NCBI GenBank assembly: GCA_017454765.1
Contig: JAFTCJ010000025.1
Location: 1-64,000, forward strand
DNA from: Erysipelotrichaceae bacterium
GTDB taxonomy: Bacteria; Bacillota_I; Bacilli_A; Erysipelotrichales; Erysipelotrichaceae
Direction of reading: 5' to 3'
Length of the DNA stretch: 64,000 nt
In this document: in pieces, positions 37,648 through 52,428 of the stretch
Layout of the letters: each line of letters starts with the position of its first letter
Position numbering within the stretch: position 1 is the first letter of the stretch
Translations under genes and position numbers: made by a program
The notes under the pieces: generated by a model
What the model saw: the letters and a program-made list of their open reading frames with translations, nothing else
What the model was told of the DNA's origin: nothing
Database searches by the model: none

Positions 37648-38559
37648 ATGTTTGAAAAAGACATCGTCACCAAGAAACTGTTCCAGAACAACCACAGATT
37701 TGCGGATGTATTCAATCGTCTGCTGTTTCATGGTGAAGTCATCGACCCCGGACAGCTGCAGGAAATGAACACCGATCAGATCGCTGTGCTTTTTGACAGA
37801 CTCTTTGCCAAAGAGAAATACAGAGACATTCTCAAAGCAGCCTGTGTCAAACACGACAGTCAGTCGATCTATCTGTATCTGGGAATCGAAAATCAGTCGG
37901 ATACAGACTTTACCATGCCTGTAAGAACGATGCTGTATGATGCCATCAATTATCAGGATCAGATCCAGTCGCTCGCTGAAAGAAACCGGAAGGAAAAGAA
38001 ACTGACACCTTCACGCTTCCTCAGCGGCATGACGGAAAACGACCGCCTGATCCCGGTCATCACCCTGGTCATCTGCTGGAATCCGGATGGATACAAGGGG
38101 CCGAAGCGGATCTATGACATGATGGATCCCGAAGCAATCAGGGAATTCGGTCGTTTCATTCCCGATTACCGCTGCAACCTGATATCAGTGGCTGAGCTTT
38201 CCGATGCAGACATTCGTTCCATGGATGACGATCTGTCACTTCTGATGGAGATCATGAAGTATTCAAAAAAGGAGGAAAAAATGAGAGAATTAAGTAAAGA
38301 TGAACGGATCAAAGACATATCATATGAAGTCGCAGAATCAATCAAGTTCTTAACAGATATCCCTGTCGATCTAAGCAAGAAAGGGAAGAAAGGAAATGTC
38401 GATATGAGCGAAGGATTCAGGCTCTGGGCAGAAGCAGAAAGAAAAGAAGGCAAGACTGAAGGAATCGATGAATCAAAAGAAAAATTCATTCAGTATCTGA
38501 TCGAAAACGGAAAAACGAAAGAAGAAGCAGTTTCCGAGATCGATAAACTGTTTTCATGA
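37648..38559 (+). CDS. rpn: Rpn-family PD-(D/E)XK nuclease with an internal start
   Basis: 303 residues. KKLFQNNHRFADVFNRLLFHG, then YLYLGIENQSDTDFTMPVRT and MLYDAINYQDQI are the Rpn/YhgA-like nuclease core (E-N-Q is the catalytic triad region), and LIPVITLVICWNP follows. Rpn proteins cut DNA and have been tied to horizontal transfer and phage defence. At 38404 an internal ATG (MSEGFRLWAEAERKEG) is preceded by GAAAGGAAATG, which may yield a C-terminal short protein of 51 residues. The same tail is duplicated as the next gene. Start has GAAGGAGGTG. Confidence 0.9.
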   Translation: MFEKDIVTKKLFQNNHRFADVFNRLLFHGEVIDPGQLQEMNTDQIAVLFDRLFAKEKYRDILKAACVKHDSQSIYLYLGIENQSDTDFTMPVRTMLYDAINYQDQIQSLAERNRKEKKLTPSRFLSGMTENDRLIPVITLVICWNPDGYKGPKRIYDMMDPEAIREFGRFIPDYRCNLISVAELSDADIRSMDDDLSLLMEIMKYSKKEEKMRELSKDERIKDISYEVAESIKFLTDIPVDLSKKGKKGNVDMSEGFRLWAEAERKEGKTEGIDESKEKFIQYLIENGKTKEEAVSEIDKLFS

Positions 38560-38813
38560 TTCTTTACCCTGATAAATCACAGAAAGGAAGCAACACTATG
38601 AGCGAAGGATTCAGGCTTTGGGCAGAAACGGAAAGAAAAGAAGGCAAGCTCGAAGGAATGGCTGAAGGCAAAGCAGAAGGAATAGCAGAAGGCATAGCTG
38701 AGGGAAGAATCAAAGGAATCGATGAATCAAAAGAAAAATTCATTCAGTACCTGATCGAAAACGGAAAGACAAAAGAAGAAGCGGTTTCCGAGATCAACAA
38801 ACTGTTTTCTTAA
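38404..38813 (+). repeat. Direct repeat: Rpn tail and the stand-alone tail gene
   Basis: 38404-38559 and 38598-38813 encode nearly the same peptide (MSEGFRLWAE...FIQYLIENGKTKEEAVSEI-KLFS). The second copy carries about 60 extra bases coding for EGMAEGKAEGIAEGIAEGR repeats. The rest is close to 90% identical at DNA level by eye. Confidence 0.88.
38598..38813 (+). CDS. Small stand-alone copy of the Rpn C-terminal tail
   Basis: 71 residues from the ATG at 38598, with AGAAAGGAAGC upstream. It starts MSEGFRLWAETERKEG, carries AEG-type repeats, and ends with the same FIQYLIENGKTKEEAVSEI tail as the Rpn nuclease 38 bp upstream. Rpn genes are known to make small internal products that bind and block the nuclease; here such a product would come from an independent gene. 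This role is inferred. Confidence 0.72.
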   Translation: MSEGFRLWAETERKEGKLEGMAEGKAEGIAEGIAEGRIKGIDESKEKFIQYLIENGKTKEEAVSEINKLFS

Positions 38814-38840
38814 CAGTGTTTCAATGGCTTGGTGATAACG

Positions 38841-38868
38841 ACGGCATCTATATCCGGATGCCGTTTTC
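38841..38868 (+). terminator. Terminator after the Rpn pair
   Basis: ACGGCATC and GATGCCGT arms followed by TTTCATTT, 28 bp after the small tail gene. Confidence 0.7.
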
Positions 38869-38881
38869 ATTTATTCAGTTT

Positions 38882-39829
38882 TCAGATCACTTTATTCAGC
38901 TGATCCCCGTCAAGCCATGCGCGCAGATTATCAAAGACGATTTCCGCACGAAGTGACATGGATTCCTTTGTCGCAAAAGCGATATGCGGTGTCAGCAACG
39001 TGTTGGGTGCCTTCAGCATCTGTGTGTTCGCAGGCAAAGGCGGTTCCTTTGTGAAGACATCGACAGCTGCTCCGGCAATGATTCCTTCCGACAAAGCACG
39101 GGCAAGATCGTCTTCGTTGGTGACTGGACCTCTTGCCAGATTGATCAGGATGGCTGATCTTTTCATCAGACAGAGTTTTTCATAATCGATCATACCGCGG
39201 GTCGAATCATTCAAAGGACAGTGCAGGATGACGATATCGCTTTCTTTCAGAAGTTCATCCAGCGATACCTGTTTCACATAATCAGGATACTCGGAGTGAT
39301 AAGACCTGCTGTGGGCAAGGATATTGCAGTCAAACGCATGCATCAGTTCCCCGGTACGGCTACCGATATTGCCGTAGCCGATGATACCGACTGTCTTGTT
39401 TCTTAACTCGCGTCCGACCAGACCGTCCTTTGTCCCTCCTGAATGTACACGCTCCTGCACCTGCGGGATATTCCTGAACATGCTGATAGCCATGCCGACA
39501 GCCAGTTCGGCAACAGCCTCGTTGGAATAACCGGAAGCATTCGACACCTTGATGCCCTTCTCCTTTGCCGCATTTAATCCGACGTGATCCACACCGGTAA
39601 AAGCCACATCGATGAATTCAAGCTTCTCACAGGCCATGATCACTTCCTCCGGCATCGGCATGTTGGTAATGATCATGGCATCCGCATCCTTTGCCTCTTC
39701 GATCAGTTTCAAGGTATCTGTTGTTTTATCATACTCATAAAACTCCGCTTCATCTTTGAATTCTTCTTCGTGTTTCTTAAGTTCTTCTTCCGGGATCCCC
39801 AGAGATTCAAGAATGACGACTTTTTTCAT
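38882..39829 (-). CDS. D-isomer 2-hydroxyacid dehydrogenase
   Basis: 315 residues from the ATG at 39829 (GAAGGGGAAAACAG). VGIIGYGNIGSRTGEL is the NAD loop; Arg in NLARGPVTNED, Glu in FTKEPPL and His in LLTPHIAFATKE are the catalytic triad. The family includes phosphoglycerate, glycerate and lactate dehydrogenases; ours is too divergent to name a substrate. Stands alone, convergent with the Rpn pair. Confidence 0.92.
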   Translation of the reverse strand: MKKVVILESLGIPEEELKKHEEEFKDEAEFYEYDKTTDTLKLIEEAKDADAMIITNMPMPEEVIMACEKLEFIDVAFTGVDHVGLNAAKEKGIKVSNASGYSNEAVAELAVGMAISMFRNIPQVQERVHSGGTKDGLVGRELRNKTVGIIGYGNIGSRTGELMHAFDCNILAHSRSYHSEYPDYVKQVSLDELLKESDIVILHCPLNDSTRGMIDYEKLCLMKRSAILINLARGPVTNEDDLARALSEGIIAGAAVDVFTKEPPLPANTQMLKAPNTLLTPHIAFATKESMSLRAEIVFDNLRAWLDGDQLNKVI

Positions 39830-39843
39830 ACTGTTTTCCCCTT

Positions 39844-40212
39844 CTAAAAACGATTCCCGCATTTGGGACAGAACTCAAAATCTTCTTCTGTCTCGTAACC
39901 GCAGTTCATACACCTTTTCACATGAGACTGACTTCCTCTGATCAGCGTCAGATCGGATTCCTTTATAACAGAGAGCGTTCCTCTTTCAATTTCTCTGCCG
40001 ACCTCTTCATTCAGTTCATATAACGAATGACAGCAGCTCATTTCCACATAATAATGCCTGTTCCATTTCCATACCGGAATGAAAAACAGAGACAATACCG
40101 TATAGATCACATACACGTTGTAATGGCCATAAGCCTCACAAACATCACAGATCACAGTCTGATCAAAATCGATATCTTCTCTTTTCTGCGTCACACCCAT
40201 CATGAAAAACAT
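39844..40212 (-). CDS. Zinc-ribbon protein with N-terminal zinc-ribbon-15-like region
   Basis: 122 residues. The N half (VICDVCEAYGHYNVYVIYTV, SLFFIPVWKWNRHYYVEMSCC) looks like the zinc_ribbon_15 type with a short hydrophobic stretch, and the end RCMNCGYETEEDFEFCPKCG is a C-x2-C...C-x2-C ribbon. Function unknown. It stops 14 bp before the dehydrogenase start and may share its promoter. Confidence 0.78.
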   Translation of the reverse strand: MFFMMGVTQKREDIDFDQTVICDVCEAYGHYNVYVIYTVLSLFFIPVWKWNRHYYVEMSCCHSLYELNEEVGREIERGTLSVIKESDLTLIRGSQSHVKRCMNCGYETEEDFEFCPKCGNRF

Positions 40213-40349
40213 AGCTGATTTCCTCTTTCATCTTAATCTAATCATAAACACTGAAGATTGTGAAACTGTTTTTCTGTAACTGTATTCATATGAATGAAAA
40301 CAGCAGTCTTTCTGAAACTGCAGAACGACTGAAAAATCCGTTGCCGCTA

Positions 40350-41012
40350 CTATTTTCTGATTCTTCCAATCCGGTAAAGAACATAAGAAACCGCATAGGC
40401 AAGCAGCACAAAACCCGGCAGCACAATGATCGCTGATTTCAGACCGAAGGCAAAGAATCCATACCAGTCATAACCAGGCATGATGATGCCGTCTTTCGTA
40501 TGTCTTAAGACCTCAATGACATAATAAAGTGCATACAGCAGCGTCGGTGCTGTTGCAGGAAGCACATCATTTGAAGACAGAAGATCGTTCTTCTCAAAAC
40601 GGATCCAGGTAAAGATGGCCGCAAGCGGATTGAGCAGATGCAGGAACAGATTGCTGTAGGCAAACAGAGCCAGATAACCGAAGATCCTGCCCATCGTCGG
40701 TTCCAGAAAGAATACCGTCACCAGCATCGTCACAGTCACGGCTGCCGTTGCTGAAAGCTTCAGCAGATACACAGACGACGGAATTTCTTTTCTCTTCCCT
40801 GTCATGACGCGGTGATCTTCCAGTGCTGTGATAAAAGATGCGATCCCGAGATAGATGTTGGAATCGATCGTGAAATACTTCAGGACTCTCAGACCCACAC
40901 CGGACAGGATCCCGCCGCTTAATCCTGACATCATCCAGGAAACAGAAAACAGCTCAAGCAGCGTGAGGATGATGTTGGCGATAAACCCTTTTCTGATATG
41001 ACTGTTTCTCAT
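40350..41012 (-). CDS. Pr6Pr/FAR-17a-like membrane protein
   Basis: 220 residues with six hydrophobic helices. The YFTIDSNIYLGIASF, NLFLHLLNPLAAIF and TLLYALYYVIEVLRH blocks with conserved His and Tyr resemble the Pr6Pr/FAR-17a/AIG1-like family, whose eukaryotic cousins hydrolyse fatty-acid esters; the bacterial role is unknown. Single gene with upstream ATG in a good purine context. Confidence 0.68.
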   Translation of the reverse strand: MRNSHIRKGFIANIILTLLELFSVSWMMSGLSGGILSGVGLRVLKYFTIDSNIYLGIASFITALEDHRVMTGKRKEIPSSVYLLKLSATAAVTVTMLVTVFFLEPTMGRIFGYLALFAYSNLFLHLLNPLAAIFTWIRFEKNDLLSSNDVLPATAPTLLYALYYVIEVLRHTKDGIIMPGYDWYGFFAFGLKSAIIVLPGFVLLAYAVSYVLYRIGRIRK

Positions 41013-41090
41013 TGTCTTTAGTATAACAATTCCGTCTCTGATACATCATCATAATGATCCTGACAGCCGTTTCAGAATCAGGATAAGAAA

Positions 41091-41111
41091 AAGACAGGTC
41101 CGACCTGTCTT
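41091..41111 (-). terminator. Terminator after the flavodoxin gene
   Basis: AAGACAGGT-CGG-ACCTGTCTT on the minus strand, followed by TTTCTTATCC; about 32 bp past the stop. Confidence 0.8.
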
Positions 41112-41143
41112 TCATGTCTTATAACGATAATAAACGTTCTTTC

Positions 41144-41767
41144 TTACTCTGAAAGATTCAGTGCTTCAAGCCAGTCAGCGATCTCTTCTTTGCTCATTTC
41201 GACTTCCAATCTGATCCCTTCATCCCATCTTGCTTCCGGTTTTAATGCCTCAAGATTCAAGGCGCTGCTTCCGACCGGACTTTCCGCAGAGGTACAGAAC
41301 GGAATGATCCGCTTTCCGCTCACATCAACACTTTCCAGAAATGTATAACAGATCTTCGGTGCTTCTGAGTGCCAGATCGGATAACCAAGGAATACCGTGT
41401 CATATCCGCTCAGATCCGGCAGCTGTCCCTCAATCTCCGGTCTGCAGTCAGGATCATGCTGCTCTTTGTAGGCACGTGTATCCGCATCATACCTGGTGTC
41501 GTCTTCCGTATAAGGATCTGCCGCTGTGATTTCATAGAGATCTCCTTCACACAGCCCGGCAATGTACTCTGCCAGTATCTTCGTATTCCCCGTATAGGAG
41601 AAGTAAACCACCATCACTTTGCCGGTCTCTGTTTCCTGTGTTTCGGATGTATCGGGGACAGTAGGCTCCTCCGCAGGTTCCTCTTTTTTTGCGCAAGCAC
41701 AGACAAGCAAAAGCAGGACTGTCATCATCAGTATCAGTATGCTTTTATTCTTTATTTTTCCGAACAT
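41144..41767 (-). CDS. Flavodoxin-like lipoprotein
   Basis: 207 residues. A lipoprotein signal (ILILMMTVLLLLVCACAKK) precedes a Glu/Thr-rich linker and a flavodoxin domain: VVYFSYTGNTKILAEYI is the FMN-phosphate loop, and DTVFLGYPIWHSEAPKICY and FCTSAESPVGSSA surround the isoalloxazine. It is thus an extracytoplasmic flavodoxin, likely in electron transfer at the membrane surface. 30 bp downstream of the surface-protein gene. Confidence 0.9.
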   Translation of the reverse strand: MFGKIKNKSILILMMTVLLLLVCACAKKEEPAEEPTVPDTSETQETETGKVMVVYFSYTGNTKILAEYIAGLCEGDLYEITAADPYTEDDTRYDADTRAYKEQHDPDCRPEIEGQLPDLSGYDTVFLGYPIWHSEAPKICYTFLESVDVSGKRIIPFCTSAESPVGSSALNLEALKPEARWDEGIRLEVEMSKEEIADWLEALNLSE

Positions 41768-41796
41768 CTTATATTCTCCTTCATCAAGATATCATT

Positions 41797-43314
41797 TTAT
41801 CTGTCGATCCCTGTTTTCGGGATAGAATAAGCGGAAGTGCTGCTTCCGGAATCAGGTATCACGATCTTATCAGCAATGAAAGTTGCGGTATAAACAGCGT
41901 CACCGCTGACTATAGTGATCTCAGGATCCCATCCCGCAAATGTATAAGTATACTTTCCGTCTGCTTTCCTTTGGGGTGTATCTCCATCATAGGAAGGCAT
42001 TTCGCCGTAATCCACTTCATTGCTTTGAAGGATCGTTTCATCATAGTTCTGGAAAGTGACAGTGCCTACCTGCTGGAACACGGCTTTCAGATTGGTGTCT
42101 TTTCTCAATATGAAAGTATACGGATTTTCTTTGCTGACGATCTTTCCGTCTTTCATCCATCCGGCAAAACGATATCCTGGCTGAACTTTCGCACTGACTG
42201 TGACCTCAGAAAGCGCATTGTAAGTATCTCCGCCGGAAACCGAACCGCCTTCTCCTGCAGTAACAGTAAGAGAATAAGGCTTTCCGATGAGTACCTTCAG
42301 TGCCGGGTCGGAAGAACCAGGCTCACTGATAAAACAACCGTTTTCGACCTTCGTGATCTCTGCGTTTTCCGGTTCCAGAACGGAAACTTTATTTATAGTA
42401 ATTTCCCGTTCGGCAGAGACCGCACACTCTGAAGCATTATCCACCAGAACATTGCTGGCAGAAACAGTCAGATCCCCTGCCGAGGCAATACCATCCTTGC
42501 AATTCCTGACGATGACAGAAGAACCGTTTTCAATCGAAAGATTACCATTAACATAAGTAAAGATGCCGATACGTGCACCATCGATATCTATTATTGAGTT
42601 GGAGATTTTGAGGCTGCCTTCATCACTGTCCATGGCAACTTCCGGTGTCTTGCATATAACAGTACTGTCACTGATCGAAAGATCTTCAACTGCGTAGACA
42701 GCACCATCCGTACCTTGCGCTGTGACCTTGGAACCATTCTCAATGATCACATCCCCGCTTACATTACCGGATCCTGCGTGATTGGCAAAGACCGCATATC
42801 CGTTTTTCCCGGTAGCCGTTACCTCGCTGCCGGAAATCGTGATCTTGCCGTACTCCGTGTTGCAGCGGATGGCAGTATAATCACTTGTGGCAGTCAGGGT
42901 GGTATCTTTGATCAGGATATTCCCCCAGCCGAAAATACACCTCCCGCTGCTTTTAATATCCAGTGTGCCGTCTCCCTTGATTGTAAGATCATCAAAAGAA
43001 TAGATTCCGCTTTCACCGCCGCTGATGAAAGAATCCCCGATCAGTTCGATCGTCAGAGAAATACCGGAAACACTAATATTCTCACCGGAATTATTCGTTT
43101 CCGTGATGTTTGCATTATTGAGCGTCAGTACATGAGTATCCGGATTGAAACTGACAGATCCTCCGTCATCCAACACATCACCGGCATTTTCGTTTGTGAC
43201 CCATTTGCCTCCGACCGAGATATAATGCTCTTCCTCTTCTTCAGCTGAAACTGCCATCGGTAACAGATTCCAGACGACCATCACAGCCAATAATATTGTT
43301 AACAACTTTTTCAT
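41797..43314 (-). CDS. Secreted surface protein with InlB-type repeats and IPKTGIDR end
   Basis: 505 residues. A signal peptide (LLTILLAVMVVWNLLPMAVS) is followed by a beta-helix-like carbohydrate-binding part (about 30-320, with HVLTLNNANITE and many short G-x-L-x-I turns), then InlB B-type repeats (about 340-470, YRFAGWMKDGKIVSK and YTFAGWDPEI). The protein ends SAYSIPKTGIDR without a membrane anchor. The same SAY-x2-P-x-TGI tail closes the CotH-like protein at 20602. Its ligand and anchoring are unknown. Confidence 0.82.
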   Translation of the reverse strand: MKKLLTILLAVMVVWNLLPMAVSAEEEEEHYISVGGKWVTNENAGDVLDDGGSVSFNPDTHVLTLNNANITETNNSGENISVSGISLTIELIGDSFISGGESGIYSFDDLTIKGDGTLDIKSSGRCIFGWGNILIKDTTLTATSDYTAIRCNTEYGKITISGSEVTATGKNGYAVFANHAGSGNVSGDVIIENGSKVTAQGTDGAVYAVEDLSISDSTVICKTPEVAMDSDEGSLKISNSIIDIDGARIGIFTYVNGNLSIENGSSVIVRNCKDGIASAGDLTVSASNVLVDNASECAVSAEREITINKVSVLEPENAEITKVENGCFISEPGSSDPALKVLIGKPYSLTVTAGEGGSVSGGDTYNALSEVTVSAKVQPGYRFAGWMKDGKIVSKENPYTFILRKDTNLKAVFQQVGTVTFQNYDETILQSNEVDYGEMPSYDGDTPQRKADGKYTYTFAGWDPEITIVSGDAVYTATFIADKIVIPDSGSSTSAYSIPKTGIDR

Positions 43315-43326
43315 AGAAAGCCCCCG

Positions 43327-44073
43327 TCAATCATCAAAGATAACATCATTTATACCAATTGATCCCAGATAATCGTTAGTTTCACTGATACTTCCATCCA
43401 AAAGCGCAATTAACTGATCGATGTCTTTCGCTGGATATTCACCATCATCACCTTCACCATAATCACGAAGAGCTTCTCTCATGTATTTGAACACATTGAC
43501 ATAATCTACGATAATACCTGCTGGTTTGTTCGGAAATACACGATTTGCTCTAGCAATAGCTTGCATTAATGTATGGGACTTCATTGGCTTATCCAAATAT
43601 AATGTTGAAAGGCTTGGCACATCAAAACCAGTCAGCCACATTGCACAGACAAATACAAGTCTGAATGGATTGTCTGGATCCTTAAATCTGTCTTCAATGT
43701 CATTTCCGTTCACATCAATCCGATTCATTTCAGCACGATGCTTTGAGATGTCCAGGCCTTGAGCAGCAAACTTGTCGTCGTCATTGCTGTCAGAGATAAC
43801 AACCGCCATCTTAGTTTCCTGCATATATTTGATGATGCTATCATATTCTGCTTTTTTATCTGGTGAGGCATTATTTCTTTCTTTAATGAGTTCTTGAATC
43901 TCCAGTTTCCAGTACTTCTGGACCTTATCGTACATTTTTACAGTTGTAAACTTATCAACGGACACCACCATTGCTTTGCCTAAGAATCCTCTTCTAGGGA
44001 AATGATGAGCGATATCTTTTGCTACAGTTTCAAGTCTTTCATGTCTCCTTTCAGAAAAAACCATTCTTATCAA
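43327..44073 (-). pseudogene. hsdR: Fragment of type I restriction enzyme HsdR
   Basis: About 240 residues. RLETVAKDIAHHFPRRGFLG, VSVDKFTTVKMYDKVQ, VFVCAMWLTGFDVPSLSTLY and MQAIARANRVFPNK are from the second helicase domain of HsdR. Intact HsdR is about 1000 residues. The nuclease and first ATPase domain are absent, and so is the C-terminal part. The left junction lies inside the terminator at 44056-44084, the other end 12 bp before the surface-protein gene. No hsdM or hsdS is nearby. Confidence 0.88.
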
Positions 44074-45392: not shown

Positions 45393-45421
45393 AAAGCTGA
45401 TGCTTTTTATTCATCAGCTTT
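45393..45421 (-). terminator. Terminator overlapping the rtcB stop codon
   Basis: AAAGCTGATG and CATCAGCTTT arms, followed on the minus strand by TTTTTGAT. The stem includes the last rtcB codons. Confidence 0.85.
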
Positions 45422-46612
45422 GAAGTTGTAAATCGGCTTGATGACTCTGATGATGTCTGCGGTCGGCCCGATGTTGTCGACGATATCCTTCATATCCTTG
45501 TAAGCCATGGGACTTTCATCCAAAGTCTTTTTGTTTACAGTCGTGGAGTAGATGCCTTCCATCTGCTTCTCAAACTCTTCGACAGATAAGGATCTGAAGG
45601 CTTCCTTTCTCGACATGATCCTGCCGGCACCGTGAGGTGCAGAGAAGTTCCAGTCGGGATTGCCTTTTCCCATACAGATCAGCGATCCGTCTTTCATGTT
45701 GATGGGGATCAGCAGCTTTTCACACTTCTGAGCCGAGACAGATCCTTTTCTTAAGATCATGTTTTCCGTATCGATGTAGTTGTGGATCGTCGTGAACTGA
45801 TCAGTCACAGTAAAGTCCATTCCTTCGACAATGATCTGCATCATCGTCTTTCTGTTGATGTCCGCAAACTCCTGCATGATCTTCATGTCATGGATGTAGT
45901 CATCAAACAGTGTTCCGCTCACATAGGCCAGATCTTTCGGGATGTCGTTTTTCACATCCTTCTTCATCTCTTCGATCATCTTCGAGATCTCTTTTTCCCT
46001 GCCCTGGGATTTAAGATCATTGATCCTTTTCTGGATCTCTTCTTTGGTGATCCCGTTGCACTGTCTGTAAGCCAGATCCTGGTAGATCTCTGCGACTTCC
46101 TTGCCCAGGTGTCTGGAACCGGAGTGGATGACGATGTATAAGTGATCTTCGTCATCTTTATCCACTTCGATGAAGTGGTTGCCTCCGCCCAGGGTACCGA
46201 TTGCCTTTAATTCTTTTTCAATATGGTTAACCTTACCGATACATCTTAAACTGAAGACATCCGTCTGATCGGCATTTTCATGTTTTCTGCTTCTGACACT
46301 CATGCCGGAAGGGATCTTCTTTCTGATCAGCTGATCCAGCTTTTCAAAATCGATCTGCTTCTCTTCGATCATGACCGTCTCCATGCCGCAGCCGATATCG
46401 ACACCGACCATGTTGGGCGTGACCGCACCATGTAAGGTCATGGTCGTGCCGATCGTGCAGCCGGCTCCCGCATGGACATCCGGCATGATGCGGATCTGAC
46501 AGTCTTTGTAGACCTCCATATCACATAAGGTCTTTAACTGATCGATCGCTTCCGCTTCGGCGTTTGAAGCATACACGATCGCTTCGTTGTATTCTCCTGT
46601 GATTCTGTACAT
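45407..46612 (-). CDS. rtcB: RtcB RNA-splicing ligase
   Basis: 401 residues. IRIMPDVHAGAGCTIGTTM and PNMVGVDIGCGMETV hold the first metal ligands (Asp, Cys), LGGGNHFIEVDKD and HLYIVIHSGSRHLGKE further His ligands, and SAPHGAGRIMSRKEAF the GMP-linked His. RtcB joins 2',3'-cyclic phosphate or 3'-phosphate RNA ends to 5'-OH ends, repairing tRNAs cut by anticodon nucleases. It lies 46 bp downstream of the DUF2828/TROVE gene in the same operon, the well-known Ro-RtcB pairing. Length is close to that of short bacterial RtcB. Confidence 0.95.
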   Translation of the reverse strand: MYRITGEYNEAIVYASNAEAEAIDQLKTLCDMEVYKDCQIRIMPDVHAGAGCTIGTTMTLHGAVTPNMVGVDIGCGMETVMIEEKQIDFEKLDQLIRKKIPSGMSVRSRKHENADQTDVFSLRCIGKVNHIEKELKAIGTLGGGNHFIEVDKDDEDHLYIVIHSGSRHLGKEVAEIYQDLAYRQCNGITKEEIQKRINDLKSQGREKEISKMIEEMKKDVKNDIPKDLAYVSGTLFDDYIHDMKIMQEFADINRKTMMQIIVEGMDFTVTDQFTTIHNYIDTENMILRKGSVSAQKCEKLLIPINMKDGSLICMGKGNPDWNFSAPHGAGRIMSRKEAFRSLSVEEFEKQMEGIYSTTVNKKTLDESPMAYKDMKDIVDNIGPTADIIRVIKPIYNFKADE

Positions 46613-46657: not shown

Positions 46658-48106
46658 TCAGACGATTATTTTTTCGTAACGTTCATTGTTCAGCACCGTC
46701 AGCATGTATTCGTACGGCGTCAGATTCACACCTTTCACAAGGGATTCAAACACAGCGACCGACTGGCCGGAAGCCAGCTGCACGCCTTTGCGGTCATAGG
46801 AAGCGTGATACGTGTTGTGACGCGAATTCACGTTCCAGAAGACGACATTGGGCATGTCGTAGCCGTTGTTTTTGAATTGTTGTTTCATCATATCGTAGAA
46901 GAGCCAGTCACCGGTTACGCAGCGGTCGATTTCCATATCGGTGATGATGACGATGGATGTCGGCATTTCCGATTTCGGTGTGTCATATTTGACCGCGGTG
47001 TACAGCAGCAGCCGGAAGGCCGCTTCCAGGTCCGTGTTCATCGACCAGTGGGCATTGGTGACGTTCCACAGTTTTTCGAAGAGGTTTTCACCTTTGATCG
47101 TCACCAGTTCCGGTTTTTCGGAGAAAGTCATGAAGGTATTTGCGAAAGGGCCTTTGTTCCTTTCGGCGAAATACATTGCCAGACCCACCGATGTCGCCAT
47201 CGGTCTTCCCGACATGGAACCGGACACGTCCGCCATGACCAGGAAATTGTTTTCACCGTCGATGTAGTCGGGGAGAGCCTTCCACTGCTCCTCCAGAACC
47301 GGATCGACACCGTTTGACTGGTAAAGGTATTTTTCAACGATGTCGTAGGGATACAGGACAGAGGAATTGATTTTTTCCTCGCCCTTTTCCACTTTGGTCA
47401 GGAATTCATTGAAACGGATTCCGTCGTGACGCCTGAAGGCGTTGCGGTAATTGTTCATCGCCTTGGAAGGCACCTCGGGATAAACGATGTCGCCGTAATG
47501 ATTCGAAGACATGTTCACCTCGACCACATTCAGATAATGACGCAGGGCCGCCAGCGTTTTACGGTATGTCTTTTCAGACATACCGAAACGTTTTGCCAGA
47601 TATCTGCCCCTACGGACAGTATCCGCATTGGACGTATTGACGGAAGGAAGCCATTTCGCCAGCAGGGATACCGGTTTCATGTTTTTCATATTGCGGATGT
47701 CGTCATCCAGTTGTTTTTTCAGAAACGGAACGATGACATCGGCCGCATCGTCAAGCAGCCATACCAGGTCGTCCCACCTGCCGTATTCGGCGATGTGTTC
47801 CAGGTTTTTGTTGAAGATGTCGGGATAATGGTCAGCCAGGAATTTGAACATCAGACGTCCGGTGCGTCTTTCACCCAGACCGCCCCTTACATCACGGGTA
47901 TAGAATGCAAGTTTCGTAGCCAGGAGGTGATCCGCCCCCATGGCTTTGGCAAACATGGAAGTGATTTCAAAGTCACTTCTCTGACGCAAGGCACCGGAAA
48001 CAGCGAAAAGATCGGTCAGCGCATCGGAAGTATGATCCAGAGCCAGCGCTCCGTTTTCCGTCAGCGTAAAGTTTTGTTCGGTTTTGATGTTATCCAGTAA
48101 AGTCAT
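46658..48106 (-). CDS. DUF2828/TROVE-like vWA protein (Ro60/Rsr-like)
   Basis: 482 residues. The first 280 are a helical ring-type TROVE/DUF2828 region (GALRQRSDFEITSMFAKAM, FYTRDVRGGLGERRTG, HIAEYGRWDDLVWLLDD). From about 285 a von Willebrand A domain follows with the MIDAS box VMADVSGSMSG and VIITDMEIDR. Ro proteins bind Y RNAs and misfolded RNA and hand it to nucleases or repair. A strong GGAGGTG lies before the ATG. The 400 bp upstream carry structured RNAs, and rtcB follows. Confidence 0.85.
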   Translation of the reverse strand: MTLLDNIKTEQNFTLTENGALALDHTSDALTDLFAVSGALRQRSDFEITSMFAKAMGADHLLATKLAFYTRDVRGGLGERRTGRLMFKFLADHYPDIFNKNLEHIAEYGRWDDLVWLLDDAADVIVPFLKKQLDDDIRNMKNMKPVSLLAKWLPSVNTSNADTVRRGRYLAKRFGMSEKTYRKTLAALRHYLNVVEVNMSSNHYGDIVYPEVPSKAMNNYRNAFRRHDGIRFNEFLTKVEKGEEKINSSVLYPYDIVEKYLYQSNGVDPVLEEQWKALPDYIDGENNFLVMADVSGSMSGRPMATSVGLAMYFAERNKGPFANTFMTFSEKPELVTIKGENLFEKLWNVTNAHWSMNTDLEAAFRLLLYTAVKYDTPKSEMPTSIVIITDMEIDRCVTGDWLFYDMMKQQFKNNGYDMPNVVFWNVNSRHNTYHASYDRKGVQLASGQSVAVFESLVKGVNLTPYEYMLTVLNNERYEKIIV

Positions 48107-48135
48107 GGTGATCCACCTCCTTCATTCTCAATGTC

Positions 48136-48161
48136 ACGGCACTTTTTATCGGAAGTGCCGT
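48136..48161 (-). other. Hairpin before the DUF2828/TROVE ribosome site
   Basis: ACGGCACT and AGTGCCGT form an 8-bp stem with a 10-nt loop, 30 bp before the ATG. It lacks a clear T-run, so it could be a processing site or weak attenuator rather than a full terminator. Confidence 0.45.
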
Positions 48162-48165
48162 ATGC

Positions 48166-48217
48166 AAGATGCCTTCGTTTTTGTCTGACACACGTAGTGG
48201 TTTGCTGCGGGCATCTT
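48166..48217 (-). ncRNA. Structured leader module with CAGCAAACC box
   Basis: On the minus strand AAGATGC pairs with GCATCTT, enclosing CCGCAGCAAACCACTACG and a purine-rich loop. The box CAGCAAACC recurs in the tRNA-like module and, as CAGCAAAACC, in the module at 48359. Confidence 0.55.
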
Positions 48218-48220
48218 TTC

Positions 48221-48316
48221 AAGACGTTGTTTCAACGGGATTCGAACCCGTAACACCGGTCCGATACCGGCTGCATTTCCATTCGCCAGATCCTGATGGT
48301 TTGCTGTAAACGTCTT
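48221..48316 (-). ncRNA. tRNA-like RNA (candidate Y-RNA/YrlA-type)
   Basis: 96 nt. AAGACGTT and AACGTCTT close the module. Inside are a perfect T-arm (ACGGG-TTCGAAT-CCCGT), an anticodon-like hairpin (CCGG-TATCGGA-CCGG) and a D-arm-like part containing GGATCTGGCGAATGG. It cannot be a working tRNA: six bases separate T-arm and acceptor, no CCA or discriminator is in place, and the loop lacks U33. Bacterial Y RNAs (YrlA) that bind Rsr carry just such a tRNA-like module, and an Rsr-like gene follows directly. Confidence 0.68.
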
Positions 48317-48329
48317 TCTTCCTTTCTGC

Positions 48330-48356
48330 GTACGGGGCCATGATACAGCCCCGTAC
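48330..48356 (-). ncRNA. Strong GC hairpin between leader modules
   Basis: GTACGGGGC and GCCCCGTAC pair over nine bases around a 9-nt loop, directly before the tRNA-like module and after the 48359 module. No T-run, so more likely a processing or separator stem than a terminator. Confidence 0.55.
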
Positions 48357-48358
48357 CT

Positions 48359-48418
48359 AGACACCGAATTTTTACCGTTTATTAGTCGGAAGCCCTCTGG
48401 GTTTTGCTGCAGGTGTCT
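48359..48418 (-). ncRNA. Structured leader module with CAGCAAAACC box
   Basis: AGACACC and GGTGTCT close a 60-nt module whose 5' side reads TGCAGCAAAACCCAGAGGG. It has the same design (closing stem, then CAGCAAA-CC box) as the modules at 48166 and 48221. Confidence 0.52.
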
Positions 48419-48422
48419 GTAC

Positions 48423-48490
48423 CAGGCACATCTTTCTTACGAGCACGCAGGTCTCGTAACACTCATCTTGAAGACTGCTGTCAGTGCCTG
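48423..48490 (-). ncRNA. First structured leader module of the repair operon
   Basis: CAGGCAC and GTGCCTG close a 68-nt module containing an inner hairpin TTACGAG-ACCTGCGTG-CTCGTAA (7 bp). The 5' side holds GACAGCAGTC, a shorter form of the box in the other modules. It is the promoter-proximal part of the leader. Confidence 0.5.
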
Positions 48491-48504
48491 AGCTGTCCTC
48501 TCGG

Positions 48505-48547
48505 GACAATTTCATGATATCAGCTATAAATATCGGATAAAATTGTC
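48505..48547. promoter_or_regulatory. Dyad in the promoter region of the repair operon
   Basis: GACAATTT (48505-48512) and AAATTGTC (48540-48547) form an 8-bp inverted repeat with a 27-bp spacer, in the gap between the divergent WYL gene and the leader RNAs. AT-rich TATTTATAG lies within. A candidate operator/promoter. Confidence 0.42.
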
Positions 48548-48564
48548 AGATTAAATAACTATTC

Positions 48565-48629
48565 GACCACTGATTAACCTTTATTTTTCAGTCATTTTGA
48601 ATAATACAGTTCATTTTCTGACCACTTAT
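48565..48629. promoter_or_regulatory. Direct repeats GACCACT-n-AT upstream of the WYL regulator
   Basis: GACCACTGAT (48565-48574) and GACCACTTAT (48620-48629) are 55 bp apart, start to start, about five helical turns, in the divergent promoter region. They are candidate sites of the RHH-WYL regulator. Confidence 0.42.
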
Positions 48630-48659
48630 GGTGTACTATCAAGGTATGGAGGCATCTTT

Positions 48660-49712
48660 ATGGAAGAAAAAATCAAGATCTACATACCCGAAAGCGTCAA
48701 TAGTATCCTTCTGAAAGACATGGAACGCTTCGAATTCTTCAAGAAAGACGGTTCCTTGAACAAGAACGAGTTCTATAACACCCTGATCGTCAATTACTAC
48801 GAACAGTATGAAGAAAATCAGAGCGATATCTTTTCCCATATCAAGGAATCGATCGAAAGCAGGACCTCCTTAAAAGATCAGGACATCAGCGATATCGCTG
48901 CCGATATCCTGCAGTATGTCGATATCAGGACCTATCAGCTCGACAGGGAAAGATTCGATGTTGCGATCGCCATGAAACCGACAAAGAAGTCGTCCGATGA
49001 CATCGACTACATCCAGAACTGTCTCTTGGGAAACTCCACTCTGTCCAATTACTTCCGCAACATGTTTGCCTCCTATTCCCTGCTTCCCCAGGACAAGAGA
49101 GAGACCATCATCTTCCGGCAGAACTTTGAACTGATCAGACAAGCTATCGACAATGACCGCAAGATCTACTTCACTACCACAAACAACAATGCCCCTCATA
49201 TCGTATCTCCCTACACGATAGCCAATTCCAAGGAAGAACTGTTCAACTATGTCCTGTGCAAGTACAACAATTTCCCCTACAGTTTCCGTATCGGCCGCAT
49301 CAAACAGATCAAGATCCTCAACGAATCCAGAGATCTTACCGGCCCAATCATCGAAGTATTTGACAGGATGGCCAGGTTCGGACCGCAGTTCTCCTATGAA
49401 GTGAAGAAACCGCATGTACCGATCAAAGTGAAATTCTCCGAAAGAGGCAAGAGACAATACAGATCGATGTATCTGCACCGTCCCCAGTACTTCAAAGAAG
49501 AAGACGATATCTACTACTTTGACTGTTCCAGATCTCAGGCCTTCCAGTATTTCTCAAGATTCGGATCCAATGCGGTCGTACTGGAACCGGAAGATCTGAG
49601 ATCCGATCTGCAGAAGTTCTTCTCGATCGCCGACAGGAAATACCGCCGGATCGACAAGGCACTAAGCAAAGAAGAAGACGCAGAGATCGCATCAGAAGAA
49701 GACTGGCGCTGA
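48660..49712 (+). CDS. Ribbon-helix-helix/WYL-domain transcriptional regulator
   Basis: 350 residues from the ATG at 48660 (TGGAGGCATCTTT). The start KIKIYIPESVNSILLKDMER with NKNEFYNTLIVNYYE is a ribbon-helix-helix DNA-binding domain. Residues about 160-225 (RKIYFTTTNNNAPHIVSPYT, FPYSFRIGRIKQIKIL) form a WYL domain, which binds nucleic acid or nucleotide signals, and 255-335 is the WYL C-terminal extension. It is divergent from the leader-RNA/Ro/RtcB operon. In proteobacteria this place is held by the sigma-54 activator RtcR, so a WYL protein may be the sensor here. Its stop is 10 bp from the 3' end of the convergent tRNA array. Confidence 0.82.
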   Translation: MEEKIKIYIPESVNSILLKDMERFEFFKKDGSLNKNEFYNTLIVNYYEQYEENQSDIFSHIKESIESRTSLKDQDISDIAADILQYVDIRTYQLDRERFDVAIAMKPTKKSSDDIDYIQNCLLGNSTLSNYFRNMFASYSLLPQDKRETIIFRQNFELIRQAIDNDRKIYFTTTNNNAPHIVSPYTIANSKEELFNYVLCKYNNFPYSFRIGRIKQIKILNESRDLTGPIIEVFDRMARFGPQFSYEVKKPHVPIKVKFSERGKRQYRSMYLHRPQYFKEEDDIYYFDCSRSQAFQYFSRFGSNAVVLEPEDLRSDLQKFFSIADRKYRRIDKALSKEEDAEIASEEDWR

Positions 49713-49722
49713 TTTTCAAAAA

Positions 49723-49797
49723 TGGTACCACCGGTCAGATTTGAACTGACGGCCTATCGCTTATCAAGCGATTGCTCTGCCGCTGAGCTATGGTGGT
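49723..49797 (-). tRNA. tRNA-Ile(GAU)-like
   Basis: Acceptor ACCACCA/CGGTGGT (last pair A-C mismatched), A73 and encoded CCA. D-stem AGCTC/GAGC, anticodon arm ATCGC-TTGATAA-GCGAT, T-arm GTCAG-TTCAAAT-CTGAC. The 5' end A and the mismatch differ from the usual G-start tRNA-Ile. Last tRNA of the array. Confidence 0.8.
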
Positions 49798-49800
49798 ATA

Positions 49801-49876
49801 TGGCTTCTATGCTGTGACTTGAACACAGATTGTCGGTGTCAAAGACCGATGTCCTTACCATTTGAACGACAAAGAA
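49801..49876 (-). tRNA. tRNA-Gln(UUG)-like
   Basis: Acceptor TTCTTTG/CATAGAA with one U-U mismatch, G73, CCA encoded. Anticodon arm TCGGT-CTTTGAC-ACCGA gives UUG. T-arm CTGTG-TTCAAGT-CACAG. 3-nt spacer to the previous gene. Confidence 0.78.
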
Positions 49877-49883
49877 ATAAATA

Positions 49884-49960
49884 TGGTGGCCCGGGTGGGA
49901 TTCGAACCCACAGATGACTGATTCTAAGTCAGCCAGATATACCGGTTCTCGTACCGGGCC
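49884..49960 (-). tRNA. Atypical tRNA, anticodon probably UAG (Leu codon CUA)
   Basis: Acceptor GGCCCGG/CCGGGCC, A73, CCA. Anticodon arm GCTGA-CTTAGAA-TCAGT gives UAG; an alternative fold (TGACT/AGTCA) shifts the loop and loses U33. The variable region is short, unlike normal class II tRNA-Leu, and the D-arm is poor. Identity is therefore uncertain. Confidence 0.6.
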
Positions 49961-49965
49961 TTTTC

Positions 49966-50051
49966 TGGTGGGCAGAGAAGGAATTTGCACCTTCACAGAC
50001 TTGATGCGGCGGTTTTACGGACCGGTGAGCTCACTCATGCTCAGTCTGCCC
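49966..50051 (-). tRNA. tRNA-Tyr(GUA)-like with C33
   Basis: 86 nt with a long variable arm as expected for Tyr. Acceptor GGGCAGA/TCTGCCC, A73, CCA. D-stem GAGC/GCTC. Anticodon arm CGGT-CCGTAAA-ACCG; position 33 is C instead of the near-invariant U. The T-loop reads TGCAAAT. Confidence 0.75.
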
Positions 50052-50053
50052 AT

Positions 50054-50128
50054 TGGCACCCCGCAGATGAATCGAACATCTATCGTAAAGATCGCAGCTT
50101 TACATTCTTTCCTTTGAACTAACGAGGT
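50054..50128 (-). tRNA. tRNA-Arg(GCG)-like
   Basis: Acceptor ACCTCGT/GCGGGGT with G-U pairs, G73, CCA. Anticodon arm TAAAG-CTGCGAT-CTTTA gives GCG, which is rare in bacteria because CGN codons are normally read by an ACG (inosine) tRNA. T-arm AGATG-TTCGATT-CATCT. Confidence 0.72.
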
Positions 50129-50130
50129 AT

Positions 50131-50207
50131 TGGTCAGTGTGGAAGGATTCGAACCTTCGGCCTCATGCTTCCAGGTCACGCGGACTGCCAAACTGTCCTA
50201 CACACTG
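50131..50207 (-). tRNA. Atypical tRNA, anticodon probably UGG (Pro)
   Basis: Acceptor CAGTGTG/CACACTG, A73, CCA. D-stem GGAC/GTCC, T-arm GAAGG-TTCGAAT-CCTTC. The anticodon stem CGTGA/GCATG has one mismatch and the loop CCTGGAA has C at 33; reading it one base further would give GGA (Ser) but then the stem fails. Identity uncertain. Confidence 0.58.
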
Positions 50208-50211
50208 ATAT

Positions 50212-50285
50212 TGGAGGTTCCGGTGAGAATCGAACTCACGCTCGGGGCGTTGCAGGCCCCTGCCTTTCCTCTTGGCTACGGAATC
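50212..50285 (-). tRNA. tRNA-Cys(GCA)
   Basis: 74 nt, usual for Cys. Acceptor GATTCCG/CGGAACC with one A-C mismatch, discriminator U73 as required by CysRS, CCA. Anticodon arm GGGGC-CTGCAAC-GCCCC gives GCA. T-arm GTGAG-TTCGATT-CTCAC. Confidence 0.85.
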
Positions 50286-50289
50286 ATTC

Positions 50290-50365
50290 TGGTGGTCTAT
50301 ACGGGTAACGCTCCCGTTATCTCCACGTTGACAGCGCGGCAAGTTTACTTATCCTCCAATAGACC
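50290..50365 (-). tRNA. tRNA-Asp(GUC)-like
   Basis: Acceptor GGTCTAT/ATAGACC, A73, CCA. Anticodon arm CCGCG-CTGTCAA-CGTGG gives GUC. The T-loop AGCGTTA departs strongly from TTCRANY, and the D-arm is weak, so interaction between D- and T-loops may be lost. Confidence 0.65.
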
Positions 50366-50367
50366 AT

Positions 50368-50443
50368 TGGTTCCGGATCAGGGAGTCGAACCCTGTTGAC
50401 ACGGCTTATGAAACCGGACCAGATAACCGACCTTCCACCCGGA
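50368..50443 (-). tRNA. tRNA with CAU anticodon (Met or Ile2)
   Basis: Acceptor TCCGGGT/ATCCGGA, A73, CCA. Anticodon arm CGGT-TTCATAA-GCCG gives CAU; one outer pair is missing. T-arm CAGGG-TTCGACT-CCCTG. Without more data elongator Met, initiator and lysidine-modified Ile cannot be separated. Confidence 0.72.
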
Positions 50444-50450
50444 ATATAAC

Positions 50451-50525
50451 TGGTGATGTCACTGGGAATCGAACCCAGATTGCGAGGTTGAAAACCTCGT
50501 TTCCTGACCGTTAGAAGATGACACC
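50451..50525 (-). tRNA. tRNA-Glu(UUC)
   Basis: Acceptor GGTGTCA/TGACATC with one G-U pair, A73, CCA. Anticodon arm CGAGG-TTTTCAA-CCTCG gives UUC. T-arm CTGGG-TTCGATT-CCCAG. The most normal tRNA of the array. Confidence 0.85.
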
Positions 50526-50526
50526 A

Positions 50527-50601
50527 TGGCAGAAGCTGATGGACTTGAACCAGCCAACTGACGATTATAAGTCGCCTGTTTTACCTTTAAACTAAGCTTC
50601 C
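50527..50601 (-). tRNA. tRNA-Ile(UAU)-like
   Basis: Acceptor GGAAGCT/AGCTTCT, G73, CCA. Anticodon arm GGCGA-CTTATAA-TCGTC gives UAU, reading AUA. Most bacteria read AUA with a lysidine-modified CAU tRNA and avoid UAU. The T-stem has one mismatch. Confidence 0.72.
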
Positions 50602-50604
50602 ATT

Positions 50605-50681
50605 TGGGCTGAAAGATGGGAATCGAACCCATTCACATCCGGGCCACGACCGGACCGCTCACCTTTTTGCGTTCTTTCAAC
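50605..50681 (-). tRNA. tRNA-His(GUG) with C33
   Basis: Acceptor TTGAAAG/CTTTCAG, discriminator C73 and an encoded G at -1, the His identity marks. Anticodon arm TCCGG-TCGTGGC-CCGGA gives GUG, but position 33 is C. D-stem CGC/GCG, T-arm AATGGG-TTCGATT-CCCAT. First tRNA of the array. Confidence 0.82.
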
Positions 50682-50689
50682 ATTTCCCT

Positions 50690-50717
50690 GAGGCCTGATT
50701 CCAGCTGATCAGGCCTC
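50690..50717 (-). other. Hairpin between the XRE gene and the tRNA array
   Basis: GAGGCCTGAT and ATCAGGCCTC pair over ten bases starting at the XRE stop codon. It has no T-run and is followed at once by tRNA-His. It may be a weak terminator or a processing site between the regulator and tRNA parts of one transcript. Confidence 0.55.
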
Positions 50718-50922
50718 ACTTCTCCTTCACGACGATCTCCTCGATCGCTGTATTGAACAACTCGGATAAAACAACGATGTTGTCCAAGGTAGGCATCGTC
50801 TCGCCCCTCTGCCATTTGAATATGGCCTGAGGCGTATTGAAACCCATTGCCTCCTGGATCTGCCTCACTGTTATTCCCTTCTCTTTTCTTAAACGGGCTA
50901 TGTTGTTACCCGTCTCGATCAT
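50716..50922 (-). CDS. XRE-family helix-turn-helix regulator
   Basis: 68 residues from the ATG at 50922 (AAGGATCAAT upstream; the frame extends 33 bp further). NIARLRKEKGITVRQIQEAM and NTPQAIFKWQRGETMPTLDN form the full Cro/C1 helix-turn-helix, followed by LFNTAIEEIVV. It lies directly upstream of, and in the same direction as, the tRNA array and may control it; this is inferred from position. Confidence 0.85.
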   Translation of the reverse strand: MIETGNNIARLRKEKGITVRQIQEAMGFNTPQAIFKWQRGETMPTLDNIVVLSELFNTAIEEIVVKEK

Positions 50923-50966
50923 ATTGATCCTTGTCGTCGTGCACAACGCAATCACTTCCTTTCAAA

Positions 50967-51009
50967 CAAAAACCGCCTGTCTTACTTCATTTCTGTTTCA
51001 GACAAGCGG
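50967..51009 (-). terminator. Terminator after the 44-residue gene
   Basis: On the minus strand CCGCTTGTCT and AGACAGGCGG pair across a 17-nt loop and are followed by TTTTTGTTTG. It ends the transcript of the small gene at 51044. Confidence 0.78.
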
Positions 51010-51043
51010 TCATTATCATCCGGAAAATATTCAGGATCGGTTT

Positions 51044-51178
51044 CTACACAATAAACCTCAAACACTCTGAAGCAGAAAGTACACTAAAAATCTGGTCATC
51101 CCAAATCGGGAGGTCGATCAGTCGTTCTTCGTGCATATAGCTTATCTGTGAGAATAAGTTTAACTTTGCAGAATTCAT
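51044..51178 (-). CDS. Small hypothetical protein (44 residues)
   Basis: Translation from the ATG at 51178 gives MNSAKLNLFSQISYMHEERL and then IDLPIWDDQIFSVLSASECL, RFIV, stop. The ribosome site TAAAGGAGAACACG is strong, and a terminator follows the stop. Too short for most ORF callers. No family recognised; acidic-aromatic middle, no membrane helix. Confidence 0.55.
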   Translation of the reverse strand: MNSAKLNLFSQISYMHEERLIDLPIWDDQIFSVLSASECLRFIV

Positions 51179-51250
51179 CGTGTTCTCCTTTACGTTAACT
51201 AATATAACAGACATATTTCAAAAATAAAAGTATACCTGTAGTATATTTTT

Positions 51251-52273
51251 TTATTCATGGAAATGACCGAACATGGCCTGTTTCTCATAACAGATATGTT
51301 TCATGTCCAGTTCATCGATGATGTGTCTGGGTTCAGCCCTAACATACATCTGTTCTTCAGGTTGGAGATTGCCTTTGTCCGAATCGATGTAGATCGCCAA
51401 CGGTCTTCGTAGACCAATCGCATAAGACAACTGCACCTCACACCATTTGAGATCATGTTTCTTCAATAACTCTTTCGCAAAGACTCTGGCCATGTAGGCA
51501 CCGGAAAGATCCACCTTGGAAGGATCCTTCCCATTCATGCATCCGCCTCCAACATTGGAGAAAGACTGATAGGAATCTACGACGATCTTCCTTCCCGTCA
51601 ATCCCGCATCACCTTCGAATCCGCCGATCAGGAACCTTCCGGTCGGGTTGATCAGGAAGCGTTCCACCTTTAATCCGTAGTTCTCACATAACTCAGTCAC
51701 ATAGTCCTTCAGAATCCTATCTGTTTCTTCCCTGTTTGTTTCAGAATTGTTGTAGGAGATCGTAAAATCTTTGATAGATACGATGTTGAAATCGTCATCA
51801 TAGACACCTGTGATCTGCGCTTTCCCATCTGGATAGAAATCCTGATGTGTATGAACCAGTTCATCATAATATCTTGCCAGTTTCTGTAATATGACCATGG
51901 CCGTCGGTAACAGTTCTGGAGTATCGTTACAGGCATAGCCGAACATCATGCCCTGATCTCCTGCACCGGACACTTCGTCGTTCGTGCCTAAGGCGATATC
52001 AGCTGACTGCTTGCCGATATTGTCGATGATCTCATAATCGTCTCTGTAGCCGATATCTCTGAGAACTCTCCTTGCGATATCCTGTGCACTGAACACTGCT
52101 TTGCTCGTGATCTCACCGGTAATGAAGATCTTCCCCTTTCCACCGACTGTCTCGATACCACATCTGCTGTACTCATCCTGTTTCAGACACTCATCCAGTA
52201 TTGCTGCCGATATCTGATCGCAGACCTTATCCGGATGTCCTCTGAAGACGATTTCATTAGAAAATAACTTCAT
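51251..52273 (-). CDS. metK: S-adenosylmethionine synthetase, short form
   Basis: 340 residues against about 385-400 in the usual enzyme. RGHPDKVCDQISAAILDE, the GAGDQGMMFGYACND loop, FLINPTGRFLIGGFEGD and VGGGCMNGKDPSKVDLSGAY are the conserved ATP/methionine and triphosphate loops. It makes SAM from ATP and methionine in the cytoplasm. The C-terminal part is shortened and partly divergent. A SAM-I riboswitch lies directly upstream, so feedback control is intact. Confidence 0.92.
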   Translation of the reverse strand: MKLFSNEIVFRGHPDKVCDQISAAILDECLKQDEYSRCGIETVGGKGKIFITGEITSKAVFSAQDIARRVLRDIGYRDDYEIIDNIGKQSADIALGTNDEVSGAGDQGMMFGYACNDTPELLPTAMVILQKLARYYDELVHTHQDFYPDGKAQITGVYDDDFNIVSIKDFTISYNNSETNREETDRILKDYVTELCENYGLKVERFLINPTGRFLIGGFEGDAGLTGRKIVVDSYQSFSNVGGGCMNGKDPSKVDLSGAYMARVFAKELLKKHDLKWCEVQLSYAIGLRRPLAIYIDSDKGNLQPEEQMYVRAEPRHIIDELDMKHICYEKQAMFGHFHE

Positions 52274-52295: not shown

Positions 52296-52428
52296 AAAAA
52301 GTCCCACCACCTATGATGAGACTTCACTTCAAACAATGTTACCCATCGTTCAAGCATTAGCACCTTGTCTTCTGACAGGTTGCTGCACGATCATCAGGCT
52401 TGTCCCTCCCGTGCTCTTCATAGGTATC
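52296..52428 (-). promoter_or_regulatory. SAM-I (S-box) riboswitch with terminator
   Basis: On the minus strand the aptamer holds CACGGGAGGGACAAGCCTGA, GCAGCAACCTG, AAGGTGCTAATGC and GATGGGTAACA, matching the S-box core (AGGGA, GCAACC, GGTGC-AA). It is followed by AGTCTCATCA...TGGTGGGACT with TTTTTC, the expression-platform terminator. SAM binding should stop transcription before metK, 23 bp downstream. Confidence 0.9.

Follow-up and report, generated by a model that had tools for sequence, protein, structure and literature searches.

Twelve closely packed tRNA genes in the genome of an Erysipelotrichaceae bacterium probably constitute a conditional backup operon under ribosome-mediated transcription attenuation, a reading that we base on comparison of related sequences. 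The array lies in a 64,000-nucleotide stretch of contig JAFTCJ010000025.1 (the window), and belongs to a unit in which a palindromic operator and promoter, a leader ORF of 36–45 codons, an intrinsic terminator, the gene of a Cro/C1-type HTH protein and a tRNA array follow each other on one strand.

About 18 bacterial loci hold this unit. Its architecture is also seen on plasmid pRUMAL01 of Ruminococcus albus 7 (HTH protein RUMAL_RS17135; leader at 101197–101334, terminator at 101364–101404) and in MT835533, a phage record from faeces. Most units come from metagenome-assembled genomes (MAGs) of a single family and are not fully independent. At one locus (L246, 8257–10296) two complete leader-HTH-array units occur in tandem; their tRNA sets differ, and their leader peptides differ accordingly.

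A search with the array DNA yielded about 10 further arrays, located at unrelated loci; in nearly all cases a homologue of the window's HTH_3 protein is encoded immediately 5' on the same strand, so that HTH gene and array represent the core of the unit. Among HTH homologues across the taxonomic order, nearly all of the strong ones (above about 107 bits) precede tRNA arrays while the weaker ones are encoded behind RtcB or Ro genes, which ties this regulator family to RNA repair. No leader-controlled tRNA array was found in the literature searched, the coverage of which was partial.

The leader peptide names the tRNAs of its own array

The leader ORF (51044..51178, minus strand) encodes 44 residues, MNSAKLNLFSQISYMHEERLIDLPIWDDQIFSVLSASECLRFIV, and resembles a checklist of codons. 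It is preceded by the Shine-Dalgarno sequence AAAGGAG (51185..51191, minus strand), and ribosome-binding site, start and stop codon are found in 14 of 14 units, with a dN/dS for the closest pairs of 0.42 and 0.26, which is only moderately below 1. In 15 complete units (the set omits the truncated L248 and L249, the near-duplicate L270 and the one-tRNA unit L271), the amino acid is present in the unit's own leader peptide for 126 of 127 array isotypes, while it is missing for 40 of the 173 isotypes that the arrays lack (Mantel-Haenszel odds ratio 61, p<5e-5; p=0.0008 when each leader cluster is represented by a single unit).

The association extends to codons. Under assumed wobble rules, the leader of the same unit offers a cognate codon for 151 of 154 array tRNAs, compared to 130.5 ± 3.8 when leaders are permuted. 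The effect is absent from frames +1 and +2 and from the flanking 126 nt, and codon coverage is also seen in unrelated units (p=1e-4). As the signal persists when the last 12 codons are left out (148/154 vs 120.3 ± 4.5), the codons concerned lie mostly upstream of the antiterminator element A described below, as attenuation requires. Individual units illustrate the correspondence: the arrays of L251 and L252 additionally contain Gly, Thr, Lys and Asn tRNAs and their leaders contain these residues, while Gly, Met, Pro, Thr and Trp are absent from array and leader alike in L255. The window's leader has a single Cys codon, located after element A, and tRNA-Arg(GCG) has no strict cognate codon there, the CGA of the leader fitting the ACG anticodon of its orthologues.

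Terminator and antiterminator

The intrinsic terminator (ACCGCTTGTCTG...AGACAGGCGGTTTTTG; 50967..51010, minus strand) is located directly before the HTH gene. It is found in every unit, with compensatory changes, and begins 31–36 nt after the leader stop codon (43 nt in one unit). Element A (TTTCTGCTTCAGAG; 51065..51078, minus strand), which lies at the end of the leader ORF, can pair with the 5' arm and loop of the terminator (element B, TCTGAAACAGAA) and is the predicted 5' half of an antiterminator. The complementarity co-varies between units, with a mean energy of -19.6 kcal/mol for a unit's own A:B pairs versus -16.3 ± 0.7 for permuted ones, the former being reached in none of 20000 permutations.

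In most units the overlap between element B and the terminator stem is restricted to the upper part of the latter. The terminator is the thermodynamic minimum for 11 of 14 leaders, so that antitermination must be kinetic; in the other three the free RNA is predicted to fold into the antiterminator, or the antiterminator competes strongly. Element A lies about 24–33 nt before the leader stop codon, and the sign of regulation, with stalling switching the operon on, is thus inferred from a model of coupled translation. T-box control was rejected, as no Rfam T-box match was obtained at E<=1 over 48000–51300.

Attenuation is recognised by a leader ORF with control codons, an intrinsic terminator before the structural genes and an alternative antiterminator overlapping it. 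All of these are found here, the overlap being mostly partial and translation of the leader, whose codons track the array in a frame-specific manner, being predicted. The trp, his and ilv operons and pheST are controlled by ribosome-mediated attenuation through leader peptides, and share with our unit control codons in a leader ORF, an antiterminator and a terminator that exclude each other, and stalling as the signal. Their leaders, however, are enriched for a single codon or a few, where ours samples many, and they control biosynthesis or a synthetase whereas the products here are the tRNAs themselves.

These results bear on one alternative, a horizontally acquired array that supplements codons, either constitutively or in the manner of phages, and aids translation of foreign genes, with leader and HTH gene being incidental. 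Phage contigs do carry large tRNA arrays that enclose Ro-like genes and an HTH homologue, and the loop oddities described below are common to array and phage tRNAs. Yet this explanation predicts neither a frame-specific leader naming the isotypes of its own array nor a co-varying antiterminator, and a Pfam scan of ten neighbouring ORFs revealed no phage structural gene. We consider it unlikely. A prophage origin of the locus was rejected, as the scanned neighbours include no phage gene.

A divergent second set of tRNAs

The twelve genes span 959 bp (49723–50681, minus strand), all encode CCA and are separated by 1–7 nt, as the original prediction had stated. A cloverleaf scanner in which loop sequence does not count towards the score finds all twelve, while ARAGORN finds ten and misses tRNA-His and tRNA-Tyr, the former being recovered by Rfam at 36.3 bits.

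In order of transcription, all on the minus strand, the array starts with tRNA-His(GUG) (50605..50681), which carries C33. It continues with tRNA-Ile(UAU) (50527..50601), tRNA-Glu(UUC) (50451..50525), tRNA-Met(CAU) with a small D-loop (50368..50443), tRNA-Asp(GUC) (50290..50365), tRNA-Cys(GCA) (50212..50285), tRNA-Pro(UGG) with C33 (50131..50207) and tRNA-Arg(GCG) (50054..50128), the last having ACG in orthologues of other units. The final four are tRNA-Tyr(GUA) with C33 and a long variable arm (49966..50051), a tRNA with the Leu anticodon UAG (49884..49960), tRNA-Gln(UUG) (49801..49876) and tRNA-Ile(GAU) (49723..49797). The array thus covers 11 identities, with two genes for Ile, as had been counted before. 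A tRNA array unit is defined by at least 20 tRNA genes, and the set described here is smaller (12 genes, with 3–22 in related units), though it is a dense cluster, and several of its members are redundant with chromosomal genes.

The peculiarities noted in the original prediction are borne out. C33 is present in the anticodon loops of tRNA-His (TCGTGGC), tRNA-Tyr (CCGTAAA) and tRNA-Pro(UGG) (CCTGGAA), the T-loop of tRNA-Asp reads AGCGTTA (D-loop GATAAGTAAA), and the unusual anticodons UAU and GCG both occur. The UAG tRNA lacks the long arm typical of Leu, its variable region being 5 nt, with the anticodon loop framed according to orthologues and Rfam, as the loop-neutral scanner mis-frames it. 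Two features had escaped notice: the elbow of tRNA-Tyr is also altered (D-loop ATGAGTGA, T-loop TGCAAATT), and tRNA-His retains the identity pair G-1:C73.

The source genome is a MAG of 72% completeness with named relatives among rumen and gut Erysipelotrichaceae. It holds normal chromosomal genes for Ile-GAU, Asp, Glu and His, with only 62–66% identity to the array copies, and a congener of 99% completeness that lacks the array has 37 tRNAs. The array thus represents a second tRNA set, redundant and divergent, which agrees with the earlier view that it is not a housekeeping operon.

The suggestion that it is decaying does not hold. The proposed comparison of bit scores did give lower values for the array (Rfam median 53 vs 63.5 bits for other class I tRNAs of the genome; Mann-Whitney p=5e-5, two below-threshold array members being entered at 28 bits), as would fit a decaying or duplicated housekeeping operon. 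Against this, stem pairs compared with related arrays show 585 compensatory and 28 broken changes, a ratio that is biased upward because the scanner accepts only foldable sequences; the array recurs in many genomes; and its unusual loops are coordinated and recurrent. Judged by these patterns the array tRNAs are under selection, decay was rejected, and we attach next to no weight to this explanation.

The coordination is most evident in the elbow. The unusual type seen in tRNA-Asp and tRNA-Tyr recurs in Phe, His, Ile, Gln and Trp tRNAs of other arrays. G55 is found in 21 of 137 unique array tRNAs, and in all 21 of these A18-G19 replaces G18-G19 (two also hold a later GG); in 13 of the 137 the T54-A58 pair is swapped to A54-T58. 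The elbows of all 28 chromosomal tRNAs are canonical. Among phage tRNAs, 13 of 286 have G55, mostly together with A18, and the alternative elbow was noted in L167, L176, L187, L202, L204, L208 and L225. From its sequence the A18/G55 elbow looks rewired yet intact.

C33 is likewise enriched, occurring in 23 of 137 array tRNAs compared to 13 of 286 phage tRNAs (p=6e-5) and 1 of 28 chromosomal tRNAs (p=0.08), the single chromosomal case being Gly-UCC. Anticodon loops altered relative to the host copies are what a nuclease-resistant set should have, and such loops are seen here. The original prediction had offered a decoy or a nuclease-resistant set as explanations; of these, resistance to anticodon nucleases is possible. 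A decoy array of uncharged tRNA-like RNAs that soak up such nucleases would account for C33, the altered elbows and a Leu anticodon without long arm. Against it, loops in the chromosomal copies are canonical, and the array tRNAs retain anticodon and CCA as well as most of the identity elements for charging that were inspected by eye (His G-1:C73, Gln U1:A72 and G73, Cys U73, Pro A73, Arg A20). A decoy is very improbable because the leader lists codons read by the array, so that feedback needs decoding-competent tRNAs. One array elsewhere (L057), which has lost the HTH gene, contains a Pro-type tRNA with anticodon UCA and C33 (12107–12183), a possible UGA suppressor.

Operator, promoter and HTH protein

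A -10-like box, TGTTATATTA (51200..51209, minus strand), has a position conserved in 14 units. Beside the promoter lies an operator-like palindrome, TATACTACAGGTATA (51231..51245, minus strand), which has a single match in the window, without mismatch, where 0.04 are expected. Related units share it, with the exact sequence TATACCACAGGTATACT in MT835533, and the palindrome TATACYACAGGTATA is found 5' of the array-linked HTH genes examined in the family, being degenerate in L054 and L255.

The HTH protein (50716..50946, minus strand; Pfam HTH_3, 5e-11) has 76 residues from a TTG start, or 79 from a GTG at 50955. With homologues directly 5' of about 18 arrays, it is a candidate autoregulator of the unit. 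Between its stop codon and the first tRNA is a hairpin without T-run (50690..50717, minus strand), and comparable hairpins were seen by eye in most related units. Members of this HTH family are also encoded directly behind RtcB or Ro-like genes (L273, L274, L277–L279, L282–L292, L329, L331), where except for L277 and L331 there is no tRNA array and where some genes have a TTAAAC...GTTTAA palindrome upstream.

In Anabaena, the repressor TrcR silences a 26-tRNA operon and also controls rtcB, and its level falls under chloramphenicol (PMC10272220). As described there, the likeness to our unit consists in a silent array beside housekeeping tRNAs, induction by translational stress and a repressor that also acts on rtcB; the Anabaena operon differs in being located on a megaplasmid and in having a ribbon-helix-helix repressor acting at a distance, and no leader peptide is described in the passages of that report considered here. 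This precedent, the perfect palindrome at the promoter and the pairing of HTH homologues with RtcB or Ro genes elsewhere would suit a stress operon controlled by repression alone, in which a labile HTH repressor is lost upon translational failure and the leader is a coupling device. Such a scheme leaves checklist and antiterminator unexplained, and we regard it as quite improbable, although HTH repression may well act in addition to attenuation.

RNA repair genes next to the array

Next to the array, and divergent from the Ro-like and RtcB genes, is the gene of a WYL-domain regulator (48657..49712, plus strand; Pfam WYL, 1.4e-4). By eye, its N-terminus resembles a ribbon-helix-helix domain. 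Homologues adjoin RtcB in many genomes of the family, with or without Ro. Between the WYL and Ro-like genes are tandem Y-RNA-like hairpins (48110..48545, minus strand) with a conserved (A/G)CAGCAA motif, one of which has a tRNA-like T-arm domain; an alignment shows their conservation in nine loci, and they match no Rfam family. The Ro-like protein (46658..48106, minus strand) carries DUF2828 (6e-36) and DUF7788 (2e-39) instead of the TROVE family PF05731, for which no match was found in its own genome. RtcB, the ligase expected of a Ro/Y RNA/RtcB repair system, is encoded at 45407..46612 (minus strand; Pfam, 1e-62).

Members of the genus share this cassette, in most cases without the array. 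It was rejected as a defining partner, as arrays mostly lie at other loci and the majority of Ro/RtcB/WYL loci lack one. On viral contigs (L149–L225), DUF2828 Ro-like genes often occur inside large phage tRNA arrays; in L294/L295 the HTH homologue, too, lies inside such an array, of 26 tRNAs. The window also contains a type I restriction-modification-like locus near the repair genes (33306–44073, minus strand; by eye) and an ordinary SAM riboswitch before metK (52340–52426, minus strand).

The rsr-yrlBA-rtcBA operon of Salmonella, an RNA repair operon induced by cleaved tRNA (PMC7790460), has in common with this locus a Ro-like protein and RtcB, and its Y RNAs have putative counterparts in the Y-RNA-like hairpins. 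It is controlled by RtcR/sigma54 and has no tRNA array, while here there are a WYL regulator and a Ro-like protein of DUF2828 type. The tRNA array units of Firmicutes, mycobacteria, phages and plasmids resemble our array as dense, redundant and divergent sets at mobile loci, and have been proposed to serve antidefence; unlike here, a dedicated leader, terminator or HTH regulator is not described in the passages of these reports considered here (PMC5966550, PMC12803027). Phage tRNAs with changes in the anticodon loop are thought to be backups resistant to host anticodon nucleases (PMC10264068, PMC11555353), whereas our array is chromosomal, has a built-in sensor and is altered in the elbow too.

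Proposed mechanism and implications

In the attenuation model that we favour, ribosomes would trail RNA polymerase through the leader as long as all tRNAs are available, A would be kept from B, and the terminator would form and leave the array off. Cleavage or absence of any listed tRNA would stall the ribosome upstream of A and let the A:B antiterminator form, so that HTH gene and array would be transcribed up to the point at which translation is restored. By binding to the palindrome, the HTH protein probably restricts or adjusts expression, a second layer of control that would be comparable to Anabaena TrcR.

The array tRNAs would be charged and used in translation, their divergent loops helping them to escape whatever destroyed the housekeeping tRNAs, while cleaved tRNAs would be repaired or sorted by RtcB, the Ro-like protein and the putative Y RNAs encoded nearby. 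By analogy, anticodon nucleases of phage-defence or toxin systems are likely triggers, because in Salmonella cleaved tRNA acts on operons of the RtcB/Ro type (PMC7790460) and because phage tRNAs with altered loops have been proposed to evade such nucleases (PMC10264068).

More broadly, we lean towards the view that these units represent a new class of translation-integrity sensor. A leader with one codon per tRNA would serve as a checklist, and loss of any listed tRNA would call up divergent replacements with rewired elbows and anticodon loops that work with a Ro/RtcB module. The system would be common to gut Firmicutes, plasmids and phages as a means of defence or counter-defence against anticodon nucleases.

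The shared HTH regulator family links tRNA arrays to Ro/Y RNA/RtcB repair, and the debated function of tRNA arrays becomes testable in the cultured R. albus 7, with its plasmid of the same architecture. The model provides a concrete mechanism for detecting tRNA loss in general, beyond the shortage of one amino acid, and offers a reason why arrays of odd-looped spare tRNAs are retained. If it is correct, these bacteria would have a new route for sensing and repairing damage to translation, in which spare tRNAs are made only when the normal ones fail.
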